NCBI RefSeq assembly: GCF_028292925.1
Contig: NZ_JAQGLK010000067.1
Span: 1 to 51,215, forward strand
DNA from: Sphingomonas bacterium
Lineage (GTDB): Bacteria; Pseudomonadota; Alphaproteobacteria; Sphingomonadales; Sphingomonadaceae
Direction of reading: 5' to 3'
Length of the DNA: 51,215 nucleotides
Shown: positions 14,658-15,875 of the stretch, piece by piece
How positions within the stretch are numbered: the stretch's first letter is position 1
How the letters are laid out: the number at the start of each line of letters is the position of its first letter
Made by a program: the position numbers and the translations under genes
Notes under the pieces: model-generated
Seen by the model: only the letters and a program-made list of their open reading frames with translations
Told to the model about the DNA's origin: nothing
Databases searched by the model: none

Positions 14658-15119
14658 CTAGAAAGCGCGTTCCAGCCGGCTGAGCAGGCTGCGCGCCGGG
14701 CTCGGCGTGGCCTCCTCGCGGTCGATCTCCCCGTCCAGCCGCTCGACGCGGTGGTAGAGTTCGCGGCTCTGCACGATCAGGGTGCGGGCGCCGGCGGGTA
14801 GCATGGCGTAAGCCGCCGGCTCGCTGTCATCAGCCCGGCCGAGGCGCGGCGCCTGATCGCGCGCCGCACCCGGCAGCACCTCACCCGCCTCGATCGCCCG
14901 CCGCGCAAGCAGCCACGCCACGATGTGCATCAACCGCGTGCTCAGCCTCAGTGCCTCGCACGAAAAGGTGATGCGCGGCAGCGGCGGTAGCGCGTCGCGC
15001 TCGGTCGCGTCGGCCATATCGAAATAAGCGTGCGCCTCGTCCGCCAGCAGCATCGCTTCGGTATAGAGTGCATCGACGAGCCGCGGGGCGAGCCGGCTCC
15101 GGTTCGTGGTGAATGGCAT
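14658..15119 (-). CDS. DUF1465 family protein (RcdA-like)
   Basis: A 153-residue helical protein with the DUF1465 pattern (LVDALYTEAMLLADEAHAYFD, then FSCEALRLSTRLMHIVAWLL and a long C-terminal helix LIVQSRELYHRVERLDGEI). I associate this family with RcdA, the Caulobacter adaptor that helps ClpXP degrade the cell-cycle regulator CtrA; I am fairly but not fully sure of that link. The protein is cytosolic. The chosen ATG 15119 gives the normal family start; a longer frame adds 24 residues. It is divergent from hsp20, and YdcH-type genes lie just beyond. Confidence 0.8.
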   Translation of the reverse strand: MPFTTNRSRLAPRLVDALYTEAMLLADEAHAYFDMADATERDALPPLPRITFSCEALRLSTRLMHIVAWLLARRAIEAGEVLPGAARDQAPRLGRADDSEPAAYAMLPAGARTLIVQSRELYHRVERLDGEIDREEATPSPARSLLSRLERAF

Positions 15120-15211
15120 GTCAAGGACGATGACACAGCCGCTTGTGCCGGTGAACCGGCAAAGAAGGTGAACGCTGCCGGCGCCATGCACTTTTCGGCG
15201 CGCAACCGCCT

Positions 15212-15240
15212 CTTGAACGTTTTTTGGCCGATTCCTATCT
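15212..15240 (+). promoter_or_regulatory. RpoH (sigma-32) heat-shock promoter of hsp20
   Basis: CTTGAA at 15212-15217 and CCTATCT at 15234-15240 fit the alphaproteobacterial RpoH consensus CTTG-N17/18-CYTATNT; the gap from CTTG to CCTATCT is exactly 18. Transcription would start near 15247, leaving a leader of about 95 bases before the Hsp20 gene, which is the size of a ROSE-type leader. Confidence 0.8.
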
Positions 15241-15246
15241 GGCGGG

Positions 15247-15341
15247 CGGCAGATGCCGTCGCCGTGAAGGGGCGGGATCGGCCGGTCCGGCGGGTTGCCG
15301 CGGGCCTCAACCCCTCAATCGCATCCGAAAGGATTGAGAAT
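15247..15341 (+). promoter_or_regulatory. putative RNA thermometer in the hsp20 leader
   Basis: The last hairpin of the leader hides the ribosome binding site. CTCAATC at 15314-15320 can pair with GATTGAG at 15332-15338, or ATCC at 15323-15326 with GGAT at 15331-15334 around a GAAA loop, stacked on CTCA/TGAG. In either fold the GGA of the Shine-Dalgarno AAAGGA (15328-15333) is paired, eight bases before the ATG. GC-rich stems lie upstream. Small heat-shock genes of alphaproteobacteria often carry ROSE thermometers; the usual UUGCU motif is not evident here, so this may be a variant. Confidence 0.6.
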
Positions 15342-15821
15342 ATGCGTACTCTTGATTTCGCTCCCCTCCTCCGCTCCTCGATCGGCTTCGAGAACCTCAA
15401 TCGTCTCGTGGATCTGGCCAGCCGCGGCGACGGCGATGCCTATCCGCCGTACAACATCGAGAAGCTCGGCGACGGCAGCTACCGCATCCAGATGGCGATT
15501 GCGGGCTTCAGCCGGGATGAGCTCGATCTGGTGATCCAGGAGAATATGCTGGTCGTGGTCGGGCGCGCCGGTGAGCCGCAGGAAGGCAATGCCCGTGAGT
15601 TCCTGCACCGCGGTATCGCCAAGCGCGCGTTCGAGCGTCGCTTCCAGCTTGCCGACACGATCAAGGTGACCGGCGCTTCCTACGAGAACGGGCTTCTGAA
15701 CGTGGATCTCGTCCGCGAGATTCCCGAGCACAAGAAGCCGCGCCGCATCTCGATCGATGGCAGCAATTCGCAGCAGACGATCGAAGCCCCGGTGGCTGAG
15801 GAACAGCGCGTCGCTGCGTAA
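15342..15821 (+). CDS. small heat-shock protein, Hsp20 (IbpA-like)
   Basis: ATP-independent chaperone that binds unfolding proteins and keeps them ready for DnaK/ClpB. The 159-residue protein has a short N-terminal arm (MRTLDFAPLLRSSIGFE), an alpha-crystallin domain at about 36-126 with the conserved turn YENGLLNVDL, and a C-terminal IxI motif (ISI, 136-138) used in oligomer assembly. The N-terminus and the PPYNIEKLGDG stretch are typical of class A IbpA-like members. It has its own RpoH-type promoter, a structured leader and a terminator, so it is a single-gene heat-shock unit. Confidence 0.95.
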   Translation: MRTLDFAPLLRSSIGFENLNRLVDLASRGDGDAYPPYNIEKLGDGSYRIQMAIAGFSRDELDLVIQENMLVVVGRAGEPQEGNAREFLHRGIAKRAFERRFQLADTIKVTGASYENGLLNVDLVREIPEHKKPRRISIDGSNSQQTIEAPVAEEQRVAA

Positions 15822-15844: not shown

Positions 15845-15875
15845 GGGTCGGCCCGGCGACGGGCCGGCCCTTTTT
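15845..15875 (+). terminator. rho-independent terminator after hsp20
   Basis: GGGTCGGCCCG at 15845-15855 pairs with CGGGCCGGCCC at 15860-15870 (11 bp, one G-T wobble) across a GCGA tetraloop and is followed by TTTTT at 15871-15875. It is the clearest terminator in the window and isolates hsp20 from the minus-strand YdcH gene. Confidence 0.92.

Follow-up and report, generated by a model that had tools for sequence, protein, structure and literature searches.

The hsp20 locus

The window, the whole stretch of 51,215 nucleotides of Sphingomonas DNA analysed here, carries on its forward strand an hsp20 gene (15342–15821, ATG start at 15342) encoding an IbpA-type small heat-shock protein of 159 residues (Pfam PF00011, E = 1e-17). 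A genome search finds no second HSP20 gene. The protein is 51% identical to E. coli IbpA, and its nearest named relative in the searched collection is that of Sphingomonas oleivorans, with 75% identity. On the 3' side, at 15853–15872 (forward strand), a hairpin followed by a T run matches the pattern of an intrinsic terminator; with two such matches found against 0.9 expected, the pattern is weak evidence when taken alone. Divergent from hsp20 lies a DUF1465 gene (14661–15191, reverse strand). The GTG at 15191 probably lies too far upstream to be its true start, since the domain match begins only at residue 33; an ATG near 15119 is likelier and would leave an intergenic region of about 220 nt.

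The hsp20 promoter

A −35 element of the RpoH (sigma-32) type, CTTGAA (15212–15217, forward strand), is followed after 16 nt by a −10 element, CCTATCT (15234–15240), giving CTTGAA-N16-CCTATCT over 15212–15240. Counted from CTTG (15212–15215) the spacer is 18 nt, and this is exactly the CTTG-N18-CCTATCT in which a preliminary description of the DNA had recognized an RpoH promoter. The hsp20 promoter fits the alphaproteobacterial consensus CTTGAA-N15-16-CCTATAT/CCTATCT as set out in PMC4843759, which gives for Sinorhizobium CTTGAA-N15-16-CCTATAT (RpoH1) and CTTGCC-N15-16-CCTATCT (RpoH2) after Barnett et al. (2012). Across the 2.8 Mb genome the strict pattern CTTGAA-N15..17-CCYATNT occurs once, at hsp20, and the reversed control pattern does not occur at all. 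The looser CTTG-N17/18-CCTATNT has three sites genome-wide and is no commoner than its reversed control, so the argument rests on the full −35 element and on conservation.

Conservation was assessed in a set of 158 distinct hsp20 leaders, the window included, from sphingomonads, other Alphaproteobacteria and Aeromonas. CTTGA lies 95–150 nt 5' of the ATG in 131 of them (6.8 expected from shuffles), mostly with 17 or 18 nt between it and CCNA, and the CCTATCT form of the −10 element recurs in close relatives (e.g. leaders L007, L008, L012, L013 and L014). The genome encodes RpoH itself (G000:C16, 361.6 bits against an NCBIfam cut-off of 323.1). Promoter match and conservation together point to transcription of hsp20 that would depend on RpoH, starting near 15247 if the −10 element sets the start.

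Two other heat-shock loci of the genome were inspected. The region upstream of groES (L177, G000:C199) lacks an RpoH-type site and holds a CIRCE-like inverted repeat, TGGCACTC-N9-GAGTGCTA, which suggests, as far as upstream sequence can, that groESL is under HrcA and hsp20 under RpoH. Upstream of clpB (L180, G000:C181) a possible weaker RpoH-type site, CTTG-N18-CCACATC, can be seen by eye; it is without CTTGAA and is missed by the strict genome pattern.

Folding of the leader

The leader of about 95 nt that such a start would define (15247–15341, forward strand), folded alone, forms three successive hairpins. Hairpins I (15248–15283, consensus core 15254–15277) and II (15284–15306, GGUCCGGCGGGUUGCCGCGGGCC) are stable and GC-rich. 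Hairpin III (15314–15338), the putative thermosensing element, pairs CUCAAUC (15314–15320) with GAUUGAG (15332–15338) and has a predicted free energy of −8.3 kcal/mol at 37°C and −5.7 kcal/mol at 50°C. The Shine–Dalgarno (SD) sequence AAGGA (15329–15333) enters this hairpin with its GGA (15331–15333): the last two bases, GA, lie inside the CUCAAUC/GAUUGAG helix and G15331 can pair with C15322 across a bulged G15321. The preliminary description, which had a leader hairpin pairing 15331–15333, is thus upheld by the minimum free energy fold, and the helix is supported by the comparison of homologues given below.

Two pairings had been offered there for these bases. CAATC/GATTG is the conserved one and stands; ATCC/GGAT does not. 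The latter belongs to a GNRA-capped AUCC-GAAA-GGAU hairpin in which four pairs are possible (15323–15326 with 15331–15334), and which would mask the SD sequence directly and constitute a new class of thermometer. At 37°C it is predicted at −3.6 kcal/mol, 4.7 kcal/mol weaker than the −8.3 kcal/mol of the conserved hairpin, and it can form in 3 of 154 leaders, the sister leader L002 not among them. We regard a new class built on this hairpin as extremely improbable.

The 40-nt stretch around hairpin III is mildly unusual when folded alone (z = −2.07; 9 of 200 shuffles reach its stability), and longer stretches give z of −0.9 to −1.2; single-sequence folding being no more distinctive than this, the case rests on comparative evidence, which is strong. 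Between 30 and 42°C the mean accessibility of the SD sequence is predicted to rise from 0.16 to 0.20 under nearest-neighbour rules. Such a small thermal opening, and the predicted stability of the helix at 37 and 50°C, would suit a static hairpin that lowers translation or stabilizes the mRNA, with heat control exerted through the RpoH promoter alone, which by itself would suffice for heat induction. However, the proven thermometer of E. coli ibpA also barely opens in the same calculation (0.10 to 0.21), so nearest-neighbour folding cannot decide on melting. Against a static role there is also the imperfect ROSE pairing with its bulged G, conserved across alphaproteobacteria and Aeromonas, a geometry that is thermosensing elsewhere; in P. 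putida, deletion of the bulged G locks the hairpin (PMC3669281). A purely static hairpin is therefore unlikely in our judgement.

Covariation among homologous leaders

Since MAFFT did not align the 3' hairpin correctly when given the leaders at full length, the SD helix was analysed on the 3' part alone. In a model-fitted alignment 86% of the cells of this helix are paired, compared with 74% after shuffling and 37–57% in controls with the register slid. Compensatory changes among homologues, named in the preliminary description as the check on its hairpin, were found in eight of the nine pairs, and 61 cells are double-changed, where shuffling gives 27. Because a model-fitted alignment leans toward structure, the test was repeated with anchors taken from sequence only. 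Outer pairs 2–5 then exceed all 1000 shuffles over 154 leaders, and pairs 3 and 4 exceed all shuffles within the 44 sphingomonads. Sequence relatedness inflates tests of this kind; the slid registers keep that relatedness, yet score far lower for pairs 2–5.

The two 5' hairpins are conserved as well. In an alignment made without the window (columns 27–52 and 61–85) compensatory changes occur in 13 of the 18 pairs of hairpins I and II. Eight of the 9 consensus pairs of hairpin I and nine of the 10 of hairpin II are present in the window.

Covariance model and Rfam searches

For hairpin III, 38 sphingomonad leaders, the window's not among them, were used to train a covariance model. Searched with filters off against the 51 kb, it has a sole significant match, at 15305–15347 (28.0 bits, E = 2e-4; next best 10.7 bits). 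The hsp20 leader is also the best match in the whole 2.8 Mb genome, with 28.0 bits against 16.6. As the model spans the first codons, some of its score comes from gene homology, a contribution for which the window's other gene starts provide a control. In E. coli, this sphingomonad-only model also matches the hairpin that precedes ibpB (26.6 bits, E = 5.5e-5; L185:2893–2937), in a region where the Rfam ROSE_2 model marks the ibpA leader and not the ibpB hairpin.

Rfam itself gives no ROSE family match in the window's leader, either at the gathering threshold or at E = 10, and none of 20 alphaproteobacterial and Aeromonas hsp20 loci reaches a ROSE gathering score (RF00435, RF01832, RF02523). 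When these 20 relatives were searched permissively, seven of ten weak matches were to ROSE, ROSE_2 or ROSE_3, all below gathering; the weak ROSE matches mostly end at the ATG. Nearly all collected hsp20 leaders carry the ROSE motif, and the Rfam ROSE models under-cover the family.

The ROSE motif

The signature of ROSE-like thermometers is U(U/C)GCU (PMC3669281). In 149 of the 158 leaders T[CT]GCT followed by an SD sequence stands directly before the start codon, compared with 2.9 in shuffles. At the position in register with it the window has UCGCA (15319–15323, forward strand), which retains four of the five motif bases and the bulged G. A15323 cannot pair with A15330, so an A–A mismatch results beside the loop, and the outer helix is unbroken.

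The sister leader L002, from the same genus, reads UCGCU, and the last U is also missing in five more close relatives (L003, L004, L007, L010 and L011). Loss of this U was considered as the mark of one clade and rejected: on the Hsp20 tree the departures from the motif amount to about six changes, which cluster no more than expected by chance. From this distribution they look like scattered drift and not like one derived class. That leaders without this U have a more stable hairpin was likewise considered and rejected, as predicted folding shows no clear difference.

Since homologues carry UCGCU or UUGCU where the window has UCGCA, the element is ROSE-like and one base off. The preliminary description had seen a variant thermometer class here, on account of a motif it could not find and a GAAA loop. 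That view is not sustained, the motif position departing from ROSE by one base and the loop coming from the non-conserved alternative hairpin. The locus shows a leader before an HSP20 gene, an SD sequence imperfectly paired around a bulged G, three hairpins (ROSE-like thermometers have two to four) of which the 5' ones are stable, and homology to other such leaders. We conclude, with a probability of roughly 0.87, that hsp20 has an RpoH promoter and, in its leader, a ROSE-like RNA thermometer that would act by melting.

Proposed mechanism

At growth temperature, the hairpin at 15314–15338 would pair the SD sequence with the ROSE-motif strand and so block ribosome binding. The closed state would contain U15319–A15333, C15320–G15332 and C15322–G15331, with G15321 bulged, and five more outer pairs. 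On heating, the imperfect helix would open and translation would start, hairpins I and II remaining folded, and RpoH would simultaneously raise the level of the hsp20 transcript. The gene is predicted, then, to be switched on twice by heat, and probably is.

A third layer, compatible with the thermometer, may be added if Hsp20 represses translation by binding to its own leader, except when aggregates titrate it. In E. coli, such self-repression by IbpA requires Y34 and R93 (PMC10474464). The corresponding residues in the window's Hsp20 are Y34 and R95, and its R99/R100 are aligned with IbpA R97/K98; as the single HSP20 protein of its genome, it also lacks an IbpB-like partner. Self-repression has, however, been demonstrated for gammaproteobacterial IbpA only. 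It could explain part of the conservation of the leader. We put it forward tentatively, with the odds somewhat against it.

More speculative still, and on balance doubtful, is the idea of a motif-degenerate ROSE subtype in some Sphingomonadaceae, in which the last ROSE base is no longer constrained (UCGCA, CGCC, UGCC) and a longer outer helix has taken over control. With the conserved Y34 and R95 of Hsp20, the gene might then have three layers of control: RpoH, RNA melting and self-repression.

The ROSE-like reading of the leader adds the sphingomonads, for which the papers searched yielded no study, to a thermometer family that rests on experiment; in the paper on Sphingomonas melonis Hsp17, thermometers are named in the reference list alone. 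The Rfam ROSE models miss the sphingomonad elements, and the leaders collected here would give a better one. The natural variants UCGCA, CGCC and UGCC offer a test of which of the 'invariant' bases of U(U/C)GCU matter for temperature sensing.

Comparison with known systems

FourU thermometers such as that of Salmonella agsA have a hairpin sequestering the SD sequence, as the window does. Assignment to this type was rejected; the strand opposite the SD sequence is AUCGC, without a four-U run.

The hairpin before E. coli ibpB, which the sphingomonad model matches, resembles the window's in having UCGCUU...AAGGAG before AUGCGU. It is intergenic, within the ibpAB operon, whereas hsp20 in the window is a single gene.

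The closest parallel is with the ROSE-like thermometers, namely ROSE1/hspA of B. japonicum and the ibpA leaders of E. coli and Pseudomonas (RF00435, RF01832, RF02523). Common to these and to the window are a small heat-shock protein gene, an RpoH-type promoter and a leader of 60–110 nt whose 5' hairpins are stable and whose 3' hairpin is imperfect, the SD sequence there facing U(U/C)GC(U) and a G being bulged. Unlike them, the window has A as the last base of its UCGCA and a perfect outer helix of 7 bp, and it has diverged below the Rfam thresholds. In Pseudomonas ibpA, sigma-32 transcription and a ROSE thermometer occur together (PMC3669281), and the combination of RpoH with a ROSE thermometer has been noted in rhizobia (PMC3989490); dual heat control is thus an arrangement already known for ROSE-controlled ibpA-type genes.
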